From Fulvivirga imtechensis AK7 (lineage in GTDB: Bacteria; Bacteroidota; Bacteroidia; Cytophagales; Cyclobacteriaceae), in NCBI RefSeq assembly GCF_000331535.1, contig NZ_AMZN01000037.1, forward strand, positions 1 to 64,000: 64,000 nucleotides of DNA, read 5' to 3'. The notes below the pieces were generated by a model. The model was not told where the DNA came from. It was given only the letters and a program-made list of their open reading frames with translations, and did no database searches. Positions 2,932-9,766 of the stretch are shown piece by piece. Within the stretch, counting starts at the first letter, position 1; the number at the start of each line of letters is the position of its first letter. The translations under genes and the position numbers were made by a program.

Positions 2932-4029
2932 ATGCCAGGACGTACATTTTTTTATATCATTCTATCTTTAGCCCTTGTTGTTTTCTTCGGATGGGTATTT
3001 CTCGACATTTTTATATACATAGCTATAGCCATAGTGGTTAGTAGTATTTTAAGGCCACTTACCCAGTATATAGTTAATACACAGATATTTAGGATCAGGA
3101 TACCCCGGTTGCTGGCAGTGATCTTGTCCTATGCCATATTGATACTCCTTATCGTTTCATTTGTTATTTTGTTCATCCCTCTTATATCGGACCAGATAGA
3201 GGTAATATCTGGTATTAACTACGAAAATCTATATACTCGTCTGACCCTGCCTCTACAGCGGCTGGAAGATTTTTTAATTGCTAATGATCTTACTACCGAA
3301 TCAGAGGGATTTATTGTTAATAGCCTGAAAGACAACATTATTTCCGTTATCTCTGAGGTAAAATTCGGCAATGTTTTAAATGACATTCTGGCCTTTACAG
3401 GGCAATTTTTTGTGGGTATTCTGGCGGTGAGCTTTATTTCATTCTTCTTCCTATATGAAATGGGTTCCATGCGCAAGAAGTTGATATCACTTATACCAAA
3501 CAAGTATTTTGAGGTAACCATTGCCGCTTACAATAAGATAGAGCGACTACTTTCAAACTACCTCATCGGTTTGCTGTTCCAAATGTTTTTCATTTTTACC
3601 ATTGCCTCTCTGGGGTTGAGCATCCTGGGGATAAAATATGCTCTGACTATAGCGCTTTTTGCTGCTGTGGCCAACCTGATACCATACCTGGGACCAATTC
3701 TTGGAGCTACTTTTGGTATCCTCGTTGGTATTTCTACAGGCACCGATTTGGTGTATTCTCAGGATTACCTGGTCCTGATCCTTAAAATTGCAGCAGTATT
3801 TGCCATTGTCCAATTGGTGGATAACATTGTCCTTCAGCCATTAATCTTTTCGAAAAGTGTAAAAGCACATCCATTAGAAATATTTATAATTATATTTGCA
3901 GGCGCTTCGCTGGCGGGCATTCCCGGAATGATCGCTGCCATACCTGTTTATACTGTTATCAGGGTCTCTATTTCTGAACTATATTCAGGGTACAGAAGCT
4001 ATAATATTTTTAAACTTCAGAAAAAGTAG
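2932..4029 (+). CDS. AI-2E family transporter (UPF0118 permease)
   Basis: 365 residues with about eight hydrophobic segments: two near the N-terminus, a soluble insert at ~85-150, then a membrane block to ~350. The C-terminal signature VDNIVLQPLIFSKSVKAHPL followed by GIPGMIAAIPV is characteristic of PF01594. Known members include autoinducer-2 exporters and Na+/H+ antiporters, so the substrate cannot be assigned from sequence. It ends 6 bp before ychF on the same strand, which suggests cotranscription. Confidence 0.9.
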   Translation: MPGRTFFYIILSLALVVFFGWVFLDIFIYIAIAIVVSSILRPLTQYIVNTQIFRIRIPRLLAVILSYAILILLIVSFVILFIPLISDQIEVISGINYENLYTRLTLPLQRLEDFLIANDLTTESEGFIVNSLKDNIISVISEVKFGNVLNDILAFTGQFFVGILAVSFISFFFLYEMGSMRKKLISLIPNKYFEVTIAAYNKIERLLSNYLIGLLFQMFFIFTIASLGLSILGIKYALTIALFAAVANLIPYLGPILGATFGILVGISTGTDLVYSQDYLVLILKIAAVFAIVQLVDNIVLQPLIFSKSVKAHPLEIFIIIFAGASLAGIPGMIAAIPVYTVIRVSISELYSGYRSYNIFKLQKK

Positions 4030-4035
4030 AATTTC

Positions 4036-5133
4036 ATGGCACTGAAATGTGGTATAGTAGGGTTGCCCAATGTTGGGAAGTCCACTCTTTTTAATGCGAT
4101 CTCAAATAATAAGGCAGAAGCTGCCAATTTCCCGTTTTGTACTATTGAGCCTAACGTTGGAGTGATCACCGTACCTGATGAGCGGCTTCAGATACTCGAG
4201 GAACTGGTGAATCCGCAAAGAGTGCTGCCTACTACCATTGAATTTGTAGATATTGCCGGGTTGGTAAAGGGTGCCAGCAAAGGAGAAGGGCTTGGTAACC
4301 AGTTTTTGGCTAATATCAGAGAGGTAGATGCAATCGCTCATGTTGTGCGTTGCTTTGCCGATGACAACATTGTGCATGTAGAAGGGAAGGTAGACCCGGT
4401 GGCTGATAAGGAGGTGATAGATGCTGAATTACAATTAAAAGATCTGGAATCTGTCGATAAAAAGATAGCCCGTATTGAAAAGGTAGCCAAGAGTGGAGAT
4501 ACAAAGGCAAAAAAGGACCTTTCGGTATTGCAGCAGTACAAAACGCATCTGGAGGCAGGAAACAATGCACGAACACTGGAGCTTGACCCTGAAGAAAGGA
4601 AGGCCATTGCAGATCTTCAACTGCTCACGGCTAAACCAGTGATATATGTGGCCAATGTTGAAGAAACAGCGCTGCCTGACGGTAACGAATACTCTAATAT
4701 GCTGAAGCAAGCCGTGAAAGGGGAGAATGCAGAAGTGGTTGTGGTGTCGGCTTCTATTGAAGCCCAGATCGCAGAACTTGAAGACTCGGAAGAGCGGGCG
4801 CTGTTCCTTGAAGAGTATGGACTAAAAGAGTCAGGCTTGAATAAGCTGATCAAAGCTGCCTATAACATACTTAACCTGATCACCTATTTTACTGCCGGAG
4901 TACAAGAGGTAAGAGCCTGGACCATTAAAAAAGGATGGAAGGCTCCGCAGGCGGCAGGGGTTATCCATACCGATTTTGAAAAGGGCTTTATTAAGGCTGA
5001 AGTTATAAAATTAGAGAATTATCAAAAATATAAATCTGAAGTGGCTTGTAAAGAAGCCGGTAAAATTGCCATCGAAGGAAAGGAATATATTGTGTGCGAT
5101 GGAGACATTATGCACTTCAGATTTAATGTTTAA
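4036..5133 (+). CDS. ychF: Redox-regulated ATPase YchF (Obg-family)
   Basis: 365 residues, the normal length. The Walker A is GLPNVGKST (residues 9-17). The switch region [10 protein letters not shown] and [20 protein letters not shown] are family hallmarks. The G4 position reads NVEE instead of NKxD, which explains the family's ATP preference over GTP. The C-terminal TGS domain ([29 protein letters not shown]) is intact and the protein ends in MHFRFNV, as YchF proteins do. It is a ribosome-associated, universally conserved protein linked to stress and translation. It follows the AI-2E gene by 6 bp. Confidence 0.97.
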
Positions 5134-5348
5134 AATATTTTTTTATTACATGAATTTTTAGAATTGGCGATTTAACGTTATTTTTATTAAAATATTGTAT
5201 AACTTTTTTGAATAACGATAACAATCTGGCTGAAAGTTAAAGTTACAACTGTTTGTTTGGAGAGGGGGTGACGCGAGAATTTTTTAAGATAAAACAGTGA
5301 TTATATCCCTTTGGCCCTGATTTTTTGTCTAGGTAATTTTATTTCAAA

Positions 5349-6149
5349 TTGAGAGTCAGGATTATATTTCTTCTAAAGAATAGGGGGAGCCATGTCCCTT
5401 TTCATCACCAATATTTGCTTGCGCAAATGATCAAAGGAATTTTGATGAAGGGTGGTGAGGAAAAGTTTATTAAGTATTCTTTCTACAATTTTTCCGGGCT
5501 TAAAGGTCAAACTAAAGTGAGTAGAAAAGGGTTGCACTTTTATTCTTCTCGTGTAACACTTGTTTTTTCAAGCCCTAATAAGCAATTCATTGATTACTTC
5601 CTCATGAATCTATTTGAGTTCGAGCAGGTGGAGCTGGGTGGACTATTCCTGCAGCCTGAGGCCGTGGAGTTGGAGGAAAAGGTGGAGTTAGGCGAATCTT
5701 TGAAATTTATCTGTATATCACCGCTGGTCATACTCAATTCCTCATTTAACGATAGTTCTGCCAAGCGATTTATTTCTCCGGATACGGATGCTTTTTCTGA
5801 CCTGCTTTACGAATCTACTATTGGGAGAATGCAGGCAGCGGAGATGTTTACCGATGAGCAAATAGTGAGTTTTTATAAGTTTCAGGTTGTGCCGGACAAA
5901 AGCTACCTTGCCAGGCTGGCTGCGGCACAAAAGAAATTTGCCAGGATCTACCCCGTCTATGACCAGGATGTAAAGTATGAGGTAAGAGGGTACACCTTTC
6001 CATTTACACTATATGCTGCCAAAGAGGTACAGGAGTTTGTCTTTCACTGTGGCCTTGGCCAGTTTACACACAAAGGGTTTGGCATGCTGGATGTAGCCCA
6101 CTCCAATCCTAACAGCAGGGTGCTGAAATATGAATTCAGCTATGCCTAA
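5349..6149 (+). CDS. cas6: Cas6-family CRISPR endoribonuclease, stand-alone
   Basis: 266 residues, the usual Cas6 length. It begins MRVRIIFLLKN, like the first strand of a Cas6 ferredoxin-like (RAMP) fold. The C-terminal half carries the diagnostic glycine-rich loop GLGQFTHKGFG (residues 235-245), an exact GhGxxxxxGhG. Histidines 15, 19 and 20 lie in VPFHHQYLLAQMIKG, the region where Cas6 enzymes carry the helix with the general base, so catalysis is plausible. The start codon is TTG: no in-frame ATG fits, and the TTG start gives the conserved N-terminus. Cas6 normally cleaves pre-crRNA in CRISPR repeats of type I/III systems. Here the neighbours are ychF and a T9SS plug gene, and no other cas gene or array lies within the window. 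It may serve a distant array or have another RNA substrate. Confidence 0.85.
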   Translation: MRVRIIFLLKNRGSHVPFHHQYLLAQMIKGILMKGGEEKFIKYSFYNFSGLKGQTKVSRKGLHFYSSRVTLVFSSPNKQFIDYFLMNLFEFEQVELGGLFLQPEAVELEEKVELGESLKFICISPLVILNSSFNDSSAKRFISPDTDAFSDLLYESTIGRMQAAEMFTDEQIVSFYKFQVVPDKSYLARLAAAQKKFARIYPVYDQDVKYEVRGYTFPFTLYAAKEVQEFVFHCGLGQFTHKGFGMLDVAHSNPNSRVLKYEFSYA

Positions 6150-6345
6150 TGGGCTGATCTCTAAATCAACAGCTATATTCACAACTCTTTTCCTTCATGT
6201 CTGGTTGAGATTTTTCAATATTTGGGATCAAGCGATATTTATGGGGCGGTAATGTAAATATTGCTGATAATGCAGGTTCTTACATCCTTCCTGAAAGAAA
6301 TCTCATTCCCCGGCGGGCCTCAATGCCCCAGGCTACAAAGGATTC

Positions 6346-6360
6346 CATCCCTCCGGGATG
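6346..6360. repeat. Perfect hairpin CATCCC-TCC-GGGATG
   Basis: A six-base-pair stem with a 3-nt loop inside GC-rich non-coding sequence. It resembles the short REP-like hairpins scattered in Bacteroidota intergenic DNA. There is no T-run, so it is unlikely to be a terminator by itself. Confidence 0.45.
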
Positions 6361-6396
6361 CTTAGCTTGACGGCTATGGTACAGTTGTCCGGGAAG

Positions 6397-6448
6397 AGTA
6401 TTTTTGGGACAAGCATAACGCAGATATTGACGTTTTCTAAAAGCCACT
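6397..6448. repeat. Truncated copy of the dispersed MITE-like element
   Basis: This 52-bp stretch aligns without gaps to 58406-58457, the right part of the intact element at 58 kb. By eye about 43 of 52 positions agree. It ends in GTTTTCTAAAAGCCACT, corresponding to the element's terminal inverted repeat. The left two thirds are missing. Confidence 0.6.
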
Positions 6449-6454
6449 ATTTAG

Positions 6455-7741
6455 TTAGTTAGTGGCATTCAGCGTTATATGTTTGTATCCGATCAGCATA
6501 TCTGCCCGGCTTGCGGGGGGGCTATAATAAACGAATATTTCATATTCATTTTCTGTTTCGAAGTGGTTACCCTCAAAGTAGTTATTTTTTAAAGTATCTC
6601 CTTTTATAAAGTATTGATAGTCGTAATATCCTTGTTTCAGGATCATTTCACCGTGGTACATTTCGGTTTTCTTGTCGTAGTTCATCTTATTGGTTAGATC
6701 CCAATTGTTCATTTTGCCTACTACATACACATCACCACCAATTTCGTCTGCTTTCAATGTGAAATAAGTGGTAACATAGTCACTTTGCACGGGACCATTG
6801 CCCGTGTCAGTATTGGCTATGAAAAAATCACCGTTCAGGTCATCATATTGTGTATATACCTGGTATATCCTGGGCAGATCTGTCATCAGTTGCACCGAAA
6901 TGGGACGCGTGTTGAGGTGTACGCGCTGTACATTCTGGCCGGGGTACCTGAGCGACCGCATGTCAAAAAAACGGAATTCATTGCCGGCACTGAAATTATT
7001 TTCATAGTTGAAAAAACGGTATTCTAGCTCACTTATATTTTCTCTGATGAAATTTGGCTTAAGTGTCGTAATGGCATTATCCCAGCGCTGATTTTGTCTG
7101 AGTACTATTTGAATACTTTCGAGAGGGTTTTGAATAGGGAAATCTGTATAGTCAATCTTGAAATCCAACTGCTGATTCATTCTGTTCACCGAGGTGAGGC
7201 CGGTAAGGCTACTGGTAAGTGAAATGCTTACATTATTATTGAATAGCATAAATCTCTTTGAGAGAATAATGTCTGATTCATTTGAACCCCTGTAAGCCAC
7301 CAGCAGGTAGTTGCCGGGCAGTTTTATGTTGGGCAACTTAAATCTATAATGGACATAGGCAATTTTAGTATCAACTGATAACTCATAGTTATTGATATTG
7401 TACTCATTGTAGTCATATAGATAATCCAGGTTGCGAAGTCTGGAGGGTCGCCAGTCGCTGTTGCAGTGAATGATCTTTACCTTGTAGTTTTCAGGAGACT
7501 GAACCAGGTCATCAAATTCAAGCATGAGACTATTGTTCCCAACCGGAGCGACCGCAGGTAGTAAAATGTCATTAGGCTTACCGGTGTTTGGATAAAGCTG
7601 CACCGTTCGTATCTCCATTTCGTAGGTGGCATCTTTGTATAGTAATTTTTTTTCCTGGGGAAAAGTTTTATTTCCCGGAGCGTTGCCAAAAGAGAATTGG
7701 CTAAAAATTATTATTGCTGAGGCGATCCATTTTATCATCAC
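6455..7741 (-). CDS. Type IX secretion system plug protein (DUF5103)
   Basis: 428 residues with an N-terminal signal sequence (MMIKWIASAIIIFSQFSFGNA). The body matches the DUF5103 family: an N-terminal beta domain (YEMEIRTVQLYPNTGKPNDILLPAV) with the conserved NSDWRPSRLRNLDYLYDYNEYNI segment, and a C-terminal domain with VYVVGKMNNWDLTNKMNYD that looks like a carbohydrate-binding/E-set fold. In the T9SS translocon this periplasmic protein plugs the SprA channel. No other T9SS machinery gene lies in the window, but a T9SS substrate is encoded at 36.8 kb. It is divergent from the sigma factor gene, with a 101-bp spacer. Confidence 0.88.
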   Translation of the reverse strand: MMIKWIASAIIIFSQFSFGNAPGNKTFPQEKKLLYKDATYEMEIRTVQLYPNTGKPNDILLPAVAPVGNNSLMLEFDDLVQSPENYKVKIIHCNSDWRPSRLRNLDYLYDYNEYNINNYELSVDTKIAYVHYRFKLPNIKLPGNYLLVAYRGSNESDIILSKRFMLFNNNVSISLTSSLTGLTSVNRMNQQLDFKIDYTDFPIQNPLESIQIVLRQNQRWDNAITTLKPNFIRENISELEYRFFNYENNFSAGNEFRFFDMRSLRYPGQNVQRVHLNTRPISVQLMTDLPRIYQVYTQYDDLNGDFFIANTDTGNGPVQSDYVTTYFTLKADEIGGDVYVVGKMNNWDLTNKMNYDKKTEMYHGEMILKQGYYDYQYFIKGDTLKNNYFEGNHFETENEYEIFVYYSPPASRADMLIGYKHITLNATN

Positions 7742-7842
7742 GCATTAAAATTATGATTAATTTTGATATACGAGGTAACGTATTCCAACCAAAGTTAATT
7801 GTGCAGTGTCTACAAAACATAGCACGTGCTCATTTGTTGTAA

Positions 7843-8394
7843 ATGGATTCAGAAAAAGACCTTATAGAGGGGTGTTGCAGAGGTGATAGAAAGTCGCAAA
7901 GGCGTCTTTTCGATCTTTTTTCTAAAAAGATGAAAGTGGTTGCCATGCGTTACTCCAAGTCGGATCTTGAAGCGGAAGATATTCTGCAGGAATCTTTTAT
8001 TAAGATTTTTGATAAGATCAAAACCTTCCGGGGCGACTCACGCCTGGAATTTTGGATCAAAAGGGTGGTAGTCAACACTGCGCTAAATCATCAACGAAGT
8101 AAACTGTATTTATTCCCGATGGTTGATGTTAATGGATTGACCTGTTTAGAGGATGGAGGCTTTTCATTGGCAGGTTTTCACTTTCGGGAATTGTTGAAGC
8201 TGATACAGGATCTGCCTTCAGGTTGCCAGGTAATATTTAACCTGTTTGCCATAGAAGGATATTCTCATAAAGAAATTGCCGAGATGCTGGATATCAGTGA
8301 AGGCACTTCGAAATCCCAGTATGCGAGGGCGAGGAGCCTTCTTCGGGAGAAAATTGAAAAAGAAGAAAGTATTAGTTATGGAAATGCAAGATAG
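7843..8394 (+). CDS. ECF RNA polymerase sigma factor
   Basis: 183 residues. Region 2 is DLIEGCCRGDRKSQRRLFDLF with AEDILQESFIKIFDKIKTFRG, and region 4 is IFNLFAIEGYSHKEIAEMLDISEGTSKSQYARARSLLREKI, the standard sigma-70 ECF layout. The stop overlaps the start of the next gene by 17 bp, so the two are probably translationally coupled. The partner encodes an anti-sigma-like membrane protein, the common Bacteroidota arrangement. Its target regulon cannot be read from sequence. Confidence 0.92.
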   Translation: MDSEKDLIEGCCRGDRKSQRRLFDLFSKKMKVVAMRYSKSDLEAEDILQESFIKIFDKIKTFRGDSRLEFWIKRVVVNTALNHQRSKLYLFPMVDVNGLTCLEDGGFSLAGFHFRELLKLIQDLPSGCQVIFNLFAIEGYSHKEIAEMLDISEGTSKSQYARARSLLREKIEKEESISYGNAR

Positions 8395-9766
8395 AACCGA
8401 TTTCGAGAGAGAGTGGGAGAGCGCATTTGCCGAGGCCGAAGCAGATGTGTCGCCTGCTGTTTGGAATAACATCGATCAGGCTATGGGTGATGGGGCAAGC
8501 TATAAAAGACGGTTGCTGGTGCTTACACTGCTGGCTGCGGCATCAGTGGCATTTGCCCTTTCTGTAGCAGGAGTGGGGGTATACAGAATGTATTTGAATA
8601 ACGATGCAACCCATGTGAAGCAGGTGGCCAGCGCCGAAACTGAAAAGAACCAAGTAGAAACAGCACCGGGTAAGGAGAATATGGTAGCATCAGATGAAGA
8701 TAATCACCGGCAGTATGCAGACGCAACTGAAAAGTTACAGGCTCCTTCGGATAATAGATATTCTTCTGCCAATGATCATAAAAAAGACGTGTCTCCGGCA
8801 CCTGGTATGTCATCACCTGATCTGTTGGCTAATGGGATAACGGGAGGTGAGGAAGAAAATGGAACACAAAAAATGGGAAGTGTGAACGGGGGTGTTGTAG
8901 TAACCTCTGAGGCAGACAAAGGGACATCGGGATCAGAGCCTCAGCCTGTGGACCGGAGATTTGCATTTTTAGAAACGTCACCCATTCAGCTTGCTGAGTT
9001 GCGTATGGTACCCTGGTATGGGTATATCTCTACAAAAAAGACTAGTAACGCTAAAAAATTGTGGGCGGGTATTGGTTTTTCAGCGGGGCGTCTTGACCCA
9101 AATACATCTTCGTCTGCTGCAGGCAACAGGGAATTTTTGCAGACTTTTGATGGGGTATCGGCAGAAAGAAGCCCATCGTTTTTAAATGAAAGAGAAGGCC
9201 AGGCAATAAATATGGGGGTTAACATGGGGGTTCAGGTTTTTGAAAAATGGGTACTGCAAAGCGGTATAACATACATCCAGCAGCAAACTACCAGCACATC
9301 AAATGTTGCAGTGAATAATGCGGGGTCTACGGCCAAAACGTTAAGTAATCATTTGGAGATCAAAGACGAAGACAGATTAGTTTTCACAGCTCCGTACGAT
9401 GTTAATAATACTTATGAACTTATCTCTATACCTGTGCAGGCCGGATATATTGTGCTGGACCGTGATATTCAAATTACACTTTTGGGTGGTGTTGCCAACA
9501 GTATCCTGTTAAAAAGCGAAGTCAGTGACGAGTCCGGTAATTTTGAAGGGGTAACTATTCCTGCAGGTGACAGATCACGTTACAATACTTATCAGTTGAG
9601 CGCTATTGTGAGCTCCGAAGTCAGTTATCTGGTGAGTACGCACTATCAACTTGCTTTAATACCTCAAATTAGGCAATCGGTAAACTCTGTTACCAAGTCC
9701 GAGGCGGGCTATTTAAGTCGCCCGACAGTATTGGAAATTGGGTTCAGGTTTAAATACATTTTCTAA
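8378..9766 (+). CDS. Anti-sigma-like N-terminus fused to outer-membrane-type beta-barrel domain
   Basis: I choose ATG 8378 (462 residues). The longer frame from 8276 only reads through the sigma gene. Residues 1-43 are acidic and contain WNNIDQAMGD, like anti-sigma N-termini. Residues ~44-69 form one transmembrane helix (RRLLVLTLLAAASVAFALSVAGVGVY). Residues ~70-200 are a low-complexity, Ser/Glu/Lys-rich linker. The C-terminal ~250 residues alternate polar and hydrophobic and end in LEIGFRFKYIF, typical of a PorT/OmpA-like beta-barrel with a terminal aromatic. An inner-membrane helix plus a barrel-like domain suggests a protein that spans or senses the envelope. The anti-sigma role is inferred from position. 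Confidence 0.8.
   Translation: MEMQDRTDFEREWESAFAEAEADVSPAVWNNIDQAMGDGASYKRRLLVLTLLAAASVAFALSVAGVGVYRMYLNNDATHVKQVASAETEKNQVETAPGKENMVASDEDNHRQYADATEKLQAPSDNRYSSANDHKKDVSPAPGMSSPDLLANGITGGEEENGTQKMGSVNGGVVVTSEADKGTSGSEPQPVDRRFAFLETSPIQLAELRMVPWYGYISTKKTSNAKKLWAGIGFSAGRLDPNTSSSAAGNREFLQTFDGVSAERSPSFLNEREGQAINMGVNMGVQVFEKWVLQSGITYIQQQTTSTSNVAVNNAGSTAKTLSNHLEIKDEDRLVFTAPYDVNNTYELISIPVQAGYIVLDRDIQITLLGGVANSILLKSEVSDESGNFEGVTIPAGDRSRYNTYQLSAIVSSEVSYLVSTHYQLALIPQIRQSVNSVTKSEAGYLSRPTVLEIGFRFKYIF

Follow-up and report, generated by a model that had tools for sequence, protein, structure and literature searches.

A Cas6-family protein, probably exapted from CRISPR, as a core gene of much of the Cytophagales

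Introduction

Cas6 proteins of type I-B and type III CRISPR (clustered regularly interspaced short palindromic repeats) systems are among the closest described relatives of the gene considered here, which we call cas6L. It lies in a 64,000-nucleotide stretch of the genome of Fulvivirga imtechensis AK7 (hereafter, the window; bases 1-64000 of the 70,249 bases of contig C37, in a draft assembly of 6.7 Mb and 225 contigs). In the relevant passages of the literature, Pyrococcus Cas6 cleaves with Tyr31, His46, and Lys52 (PMC3652601), and none of these three residues is said to be common to all Cas6 subfamilies (PMC3727216). The catalytic residues vary among subfamilies: the histidine of TtCas6e and PaCas6f lies in helix alpha-1, and SsoCas6 cuts without any (PMC3652601, PMC3727216).

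Some members of the family have been described in other roles. A review calls a Pyrococcus horikoshii Cas6 homologue inactive and RNA-binding, and describes RNA binding in the interdomain cleft for both Pyrococcus Cas6 and the inactive homologue (PMC3727216). Sulfolobus Cas6-3 (sso1422) is a Cas6 with a non-CRISPR RNA target (PMC4041471), but it also processes CRISPR repeats and belongs to a genome with many CRISPR loci. The CRISPR exaptations described in the sources cited here are those of effector modules, which are found on mobile elements or next to STAND NTPases (PMC8730458, PMC6452270). Among the matches listed from the open PMC literature (titles and abstracts, subscription papers being outside its coverage), none described a CRISPR-free core Cas6 in Cytophagales. 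As far as the passage concerned goes, the 2025 classification treated profile matches outside CRISPR-cas islands as false positives (PMC12669027), so that a lineage of this kind could be set aside by design.

We propose, with a probability of about 0.7, that cas6L is a Cas6 that left CRISPR and, as a core gene, was exapted to act independently of CRISPR, most likely by binding RNA. Like Cas6 of types I-B and III (TIGR01877, PF01881), its product has two RAMP (repeat-associated mysterious protein) domains and a glycine-rich loop, and scores above the curated cut-offs. It differs from them in that no cas gene was found nearby, the canonical Tyr/His/Lys residues are unkept, the His segment is shortened, and the lineage holds a conserved chromosomal place, also in genomes without Cas1, RAMP, and Cas7 matches. 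Its Cas6 fold without the canonical triad is what a non-catalytic Cas6 of the PhCas6nc type would also have. The Pyrococcus paralogues 3ufc and 3qjj (PH0350) are among the nearest folds, but they are archaeal and 18-22% identical to the window protein. We take 3qjj to be PhCas6nc.

Identity and fold of the window protein

The gene and its glycine-rich loop are located as follows.

5349-6149, + strand: cas6L, the core-lineage Cas6-like gene (266 amino acids, TTG start, stop codon included)
6051-6083, + strand: glycine-rich loop, codons 235-245 (GLGQFTHKGFG)

The window protein scored 71.1 bits against Pfam Cas_Cas6_C (PF01881; cut-off 23) and 64.8 against NCBIfam TIGR01877 Cas6 (cut-off 58.65). 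It matched the PADLOC Cas6b model at 2.5e-31, and solved Cas6 structures were matched as well. All 37 aligned orthologues matched TIGR01877 at E <= 0.001, an E-value threshold and not the curated cut-off. The loop has the pattern G235-h-G237-x5-G243-h-G245; among 103 orthologue rows (101 different sequences, with a few species present twice, and with L022 left out because its 5' end is cut), G235, G243, and G245 were found in 103 and G237 in 102. An AlphaFold2 model built from the 37 orthologues reached a pLDDT (predicted local distance difference test) of 80.2 and a pTM (predicted template modelling score) of 0.81. Compared with solved structures, this model gave VIA Z values of 20.4 for 3ufc, 20.3 for 3qjj, 19.9 for 5yi6, 19.7 for 3i4h, and 18.5 for 3pkm, the first four being effectively tied. 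On profile matches and the modelled structure, we conclude that the window protein is a member of the Cas6 family, with a predicted double RAMP fold and a C-terminal glycine-rich loop. The original prediction, made from the window's letters, had placed a full-length Cas6-family gene with an intact loop at residues 235-245 between ychF and a type IX secretion system (T9SS) plug gene; the profiles and the neighbors agreed with it, and the loop was as described.

Distribution, genomic place, and inheritance

Named relatives belong to Fulvivirga (87%), which is a member of the Cytophagales, and to Marivirga, Persicobacter, Cyclobacterium, Roseivirga, and others. A protein search found an orthologue in 108 of 145 relatives, a set that includes this genome (110 matched, of which G072 and G131 were excluded as outside the core lineage). 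Within this sample, 75 of 87 genomes of the window's own family carry the gene, and two of the 12 without it are only 52% and 83% complete. We also drew 391 genomes evenly from the order, each at least 90% complete, and found the orthologue in 173 (175 matched; the weak G560 and G780 were excluded). By eye, 84 of 87 own-family genomes in this order-wide sample carry it; those without, among the non-matching genomes listed in kinship order, are G049, G054, and G074. Orthologues occur in thirteen family labels; f13 is one of those with none, and in f11 the match is just a weak one. In a phylum sample of 392 genomes, matches outside the window's family were all at or below 67 bits. They came from 34 genomes, and ten frames from these (L137-L146) all kept the canonical LH-x-x-G; an eleventh frame, L147, was dropped as not Cas6, and the remaining genomes were not read.

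The genomic surroundings are also conserved, with flanks that Pfam identifies as YchF (PF06071) and T9SS_plug_1st (PF17116).

4036-5133, + strand: ychF, conserved upstream neighbor, ATG start
6455-7741, - strand: T9SS plug protein gene, conserved convergent downstream neighbor

In a close set of 34 loci (33 named records plus the window), ychF lies directly upstream in 33 and the plug gene directly downstream in 33, and the two exceptions (L003, L031) are contig or locus ends. In the wider set, 82 of 103 loci have ychF as the adjacent gene and a convergent plug gene was found in 76 of 103, some of the loci being short. Many loci are also surrounded by AI-2E transporter and DUF3276 genes. However, ychF is not upstream in families f2, f4, f9, f18, and f19, nor in parts of f5, f15, f16, f20, and f22, and no neighbor is therefore a safe functional partner. 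The prediction had asked if ychF-cas6 synteny extends to relatives that lack arrays, and it does when cas genes are taken as a proxy; arrays themselves were not searched in relatives. Among 18 genomes without cas6L, ychF was whole in 15 and partial in one. The plug gene directly follows ychF in five of these 16 loci (G049, G054, G074, G114, and G142), and the lineage profile gave no match at E below 2.8 against any of the 16.

We built a tree from 53 core rows together with ten further Cas6-like rows from the order; a single branch, with support of 96/79 (the second value being slightly below the tool's star level) and recovered in 95% of 200 bootstrap trees, separates the core from the rest. 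Seven of the ten non-core rows have a Cas1, Cas7, or RAMP match no more than about 7 kb away (L123, L124, and L127 do not), and Cas6b proteins from RAMP-positive genomes were outside the tree. One row from G125, a second Cas6-like frame on a long branch, attaches closest to the core side, with an unsure placement. Core-protein distances track ychF distances over 81 loci (Mantel r 0.50, against 0.20 for the best of 999 permutations) and are on average 1.57 times as large. The 12 within-genus pairs listed had dN (nonsynonymous divergence) of 0.04-0.16 and dS (synonymous divergence) of at least 1.7, mostly saturated. Seven genomes have a second Cas6-like gene, which in five of them lies at a CRISPR locus; in all 21 pairs of these genomes, the core copy was the better conserved one. 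The window lineage is thus under strong purifying selection, and we conclude that the window gene has been inherited vertically, as a core gene, across much of the Cytophagales.

The G125 genome carries two adjacent Cas6-like frames on its contig C2 (L114:2726-4227). One is canonical, with LH-x-x-G; the other is short, without that motif, and has the core-like features DHQHLL and SKGLH. The latter is a possible intermediate.

Active site and conserved residues

Two conserved segments of the window gene are relevant to the active site.

5403-5411, + strand: codons 19-21 (HHQ), where helix alpha-1 begins; all 103 rows have H20 and Q21, and 98/103 have H19
5493-5513, + strand: codons 49-55 (SGLKGQT), a signature of the lineage, with S49, K52, and G53 in all 103 rows

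The stretch that bears His46 in Pyrococcus Cas6 is absent from the core proteins, both when these are aligned by profile to 3pkm and when 17 of their rows are aligned jointly. Motif L/W-H-x-x-G occurs in 0 of 103 core rows, and a widened histidine pattern matched four, as YHFSG or FHNFK only. HHQ and KG are separated by 22-31 residues in all 103. Measured in three core rows, the His segment is 12-15 residues shorter, and the distance to the F-x-F-S stretch is 25, 27, and 28 residues versus 40 in eight of ten non-core rows. The Tyr31 column is mostly Lys (76/103 core rows), and the column of the Pyrococcus Lys52 is unkept in the 17 aligned core rows. Among the ten non-core rows, LH-x-x-G is present in seven; L127 has K for H, and L124 and L114_1176 are without the stretch. 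From these alignments, the canonical catalytic triad (Tyr31, His46, and Lys52 of the Pyrococcus furiosus enzyme) is not kept in the window lineage. The candidate catalytic histidines of the original prediction thus did not hold up in the canonical sense, and of the two losses that it named as decisive against it, that of the catalytic residues, in the same canonical sense, has occurred whilst the fold is retained.

What the lineage conserves instead differs from the genome's second Cas6, encoded on contig C13. Residues invariant in 103 of 103 core rows include (with the C13 residue in parentheses) H20 (Y), K52 (N), G53 (Y), S66 (G), E109 (L), K195 (S), and Y215 (W), among others, and H63 is kept in 94 of 103. 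Three of these residues, H20 at the start of alpha-1, K52 and, in most rows, H63, could form a rebuilt active site, with which the protein would still be an endoribonuclease that processes cellular RNA. H20 begins the modeled helix that spans residues 20-35, which is consistent with this idea, as are the alpha-1 histidines of TtCas6e and PaCas6f and the histidine-free cutting by SsoCas6 noted in the Introduction. Sulfolobus Cas6-3, moreover, is described as cleaving ncRNA60, which is not a CRISPR RNA (PMC4041471), and the active Cas6 3i4h equals 3ufc and 3qjj in closeness of fold. However, the H20 position is also His in 3pkm and 5yi6, and hence is not unique to the core lineage; in Pyrococcus Cas6 the catalytic histidine is nevertheless His46. 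In a profile search, the best structure match was the paralogue 3ufc (1.9e-13), which is likewise without His at the His46 column, far ahead of the active 3pkm (0.0018), though 5yi6, which keeps LH, came second. No substrate was found either, and we consider a rebuilt nuclease possible but on the whole doubtful.

Relation to CRISPR

No direct-repeat family at array spacing was detected within the 64-kb window, nor any copy of the genome's own CRISPR repeat at <=3 mismatches, which bears out the prediction that the window has no array. Its statement that the window has no other cas gene stands for Cas6, Cas1, Cas7, and RAMP, models of which were searched genome-wide and gave no further match on the window contig; other cas families were not searched there. 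Elsewhere, a genome-wide check of the kind that the prediction had suggested revealed a type I-B locus on contig C13, with 53 repeats in its array and with the genes cas6, cas8b, cas7, cas5, cas3, cas4, and cas1 (cas2 was outside the search). At <=2 mismatches, the C13 repeat occurs at 54 places in the genome, 53 of them in the array and the other where contig C3 begins. The C13 Cas6, located beside cas8b and the array, is of the same family as the window protein, but is only 20% identical to it over the matched part and retains the canonical catalytic motif (WIY...FLHSQGY...FKFF). Profile PF10040 had no match in this genome. As PF01905 (DevR) failed to detect the genome's own Cas7, PF05107 was added to the Cas7 searches.

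With regard to the position of the lineage relative to CRISPR (INDEPENDENCE from CRISPR), 52 of 108 carriers are without Cas1, RAMP, or Cas7, and 56 have at least one of them; among non-carriers, 10 of 37 have one. Five of the 52 cas-negative carriers are single-contig genomes (G003, G011, G042, G044, and G090). PF01881 has its sole match in the core protein in 48 of the 52, and a second match in G053, G083, G112, and G133.

These data bear on the idea that cas6L is a resident crRNA (CRISPR RNA)-processing enzyme that serves the cell's CRISPR locus in trans. Cas1 is indeed commoner among carriers (56/108 vs. 9/37, Fisher p 0.004, uncorrected for kinship), as would also follow from a link to CRISPR, but family membership confounds the comparison. 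Moreover, most type III loci apparently rely on a Cas6 from elsewhere, according to the passage concerned in the 2025 classification (PMC12669027), and the protein search turned up no second Cas6 in 11 of 14 RAMP-positive carriers. This low count mainly reflects a limit of the query: on the CRISPR contigs of those 11 genomes, we found Cas6b (PF17262/PF17955) in nine, and none in G058 and G116, whose CRISPR contigs are short. Two custom hidden Markov models had found no Cas6 on the CRISPR contigs of the 11 genomes, whereas a glycine-loop pattern picked 18 frames, ten of which were scanned and proved to be Cas6b by both PADLOC and Pfam; of the eight unscanned frames, several overlap RAMP matches. 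Service in trans is further opposed by the I-B locus of this genome having its own Cas6 with a canonical motif, by the 52 cas-negative carriers, and by the loss of that motif in the window lineage. We therefore regard it as unlikely, and the window gene, a Cas6 by both fold and sequence, is probably no crRNA-processing enzyme. The original prediction had left the choice between service to an array elsewhere and recruitment to other RNA; the array exists, but with its own cas6, and we favor recruitment because the gene is conserved, mostly syntenic, and also present in genomes without Cas1, RAMP, and Cas7.

Finally, that cas6L is a decaying remnant of a former CRISPR locus, as a lone gene with a lost catalytic motif might suggest, is highly improbable: its frames are open over their full length, dN is far lower than dS, the gene is retained in 13 family labels, and in five genomes the whole gene is cleanly absent, not decayed.

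A probable role in RNA binding

The reading that we prefer is thus that of a Cas6 exapted from CRISPR. Since cas6L is kept as an ordinary chromosomal gene with or without detectable CRISPR genes, the protein probably has an everyday RNA job. We suggest, from the fold and the conserved residues, that it would bind RNA of the cell, single-stranded or with weak structure, in its interdomain cleft, in the manner of the catalytically inactive Pyrococcus homologue, and that through this binding it could have a regulatory or chaperone function. It might in addition cut RNA, with a rebuilt site around H20. The TTG or GTG start and a U-rich stretch ahead of it may hold expression at a low or regulated level, perhaps under the protein's own control.

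Several observations weigh against this interpretation. The fold does not argue for inactivity, because the active Pyrococcus Cas6 3i4h tied with 3ufc and 3qjj; the model is weak at residues 198-214, and the net charge of the protein is only +3. Nor did an RNA partner emerge: Rfam gave two chance-level matches, far below the gathering scores, on window positions 4000-8000; RNAalifold on the ychF-cas6L spacer of 12 loci gave -1.27 kcal/mol with eight pairs and one double change, and hence no conserved structure; and the CRISPR repeat, as a candidate partner, is absent from the window. The excess of Cas1 among carriers counts on the same side, and the searches of the cas-negative genomes did not extend to type V and VI effectors, orphan arrays, or Cas6b (PF17262).

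YchF is a translation-associated ATPase. A more specific version of the exaptation would make the protein a housekeeping RNA factor acting on defined cellular RNAs with a new active site (H20, K52, and H63), a possible link to translation through ychF and the non-AUG start, and self-regulation; as a whole, we consider this version rather unlikely and offer it only as a suggestion.

If our preferred reading is true, a single Cas6 fixed as a chromosomal core gene, even where no CRISPR genes are detected, would mean that a protein for processing CRISPR RNA can become part of core RNA metabolism. A "Cas6" annotation alone does not demonstrate a CRISPR system in these genomes. G003 and G011, complete genomes from this genus in which Cas1, RAMP, and Cas7 are missing, offer a direct test bed.

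Start codon and leader

The prediction had called the TTG start unusual. The start is genuine, but non-ATG starts are typical of most of the lineage: the 103 rows comprise 59 TTG, 33 GTG, and 11 ATG (L085 and L106 have no start at the aligned residue and are scored as GTG, the codon just before it). In a close set of 73 (69 rows plus L083, L089, L094, and L102), TTG or GTG is used in 72, the one ATG being that of L094, whilst ATG occurs in ten of 30 rows from other families. In comparison, ychF starts with ATG in 79 of 79 scorable loci. At several loci, in-frame stops one or two codons upstream fix the start position; an in-frame ATG at least 20 codons upstream was seen in three rows (L015, L042, and L080). 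The tree requires 22 start-codon changes, so TTG and GTG have been exchanged repeatedly.

5322-5328, + strand: T-rich stretch, -27 to -21 before the start codon, shared by most close relatives (mean T 0.72 vs. 0.40 before ychF)

A run of at least five T at -35 to -17 was present in 48 of 68 close loci, compared with 16 of 65 before ychF and nine of 34 other core loci. Together, the TTG/GTG starts and T-runs of the close set suggest selection for weak or regulated initiation. A further T-rich element (TATTTTTA), invariant in 12 aligned loci of the genus, lies shortly after the ychF stop (window 5134-5300) and may be a promoter or other signal.

Other observations

The spacer 3' of cas6L (window 6240-6400) includes a GC-rich part, with inverted repeats (by eye, CCCCGGCGGGCC and CATCCCTCCGGGATG), that resembles an intergenic repeat element. 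On the minus strand at 366-2579, the window encodes a 737-residue protein with an N-terminal part that, by eye, resembles 2-oxoglutarate-Fe(II) oxygenases. Its gene occupies the position where relatives carry, upstream of the block, two genes that we take to be DUF3276 (presumably PUR-alpha) and DUF58. Within the C13 I-B locus, we observed four palindromic 33-nt elements (L067:1469-1501, 2040-2072, 2416-2448, and 9314-9346) and a transposase-like open reading frame between cas3 and cas4 (L067:2076-2690), which together look like what we presume to be an insertion of the REP-element/RAYT (repetitive extragenic palindrome/REP-associated tyrosine transposase) kind.
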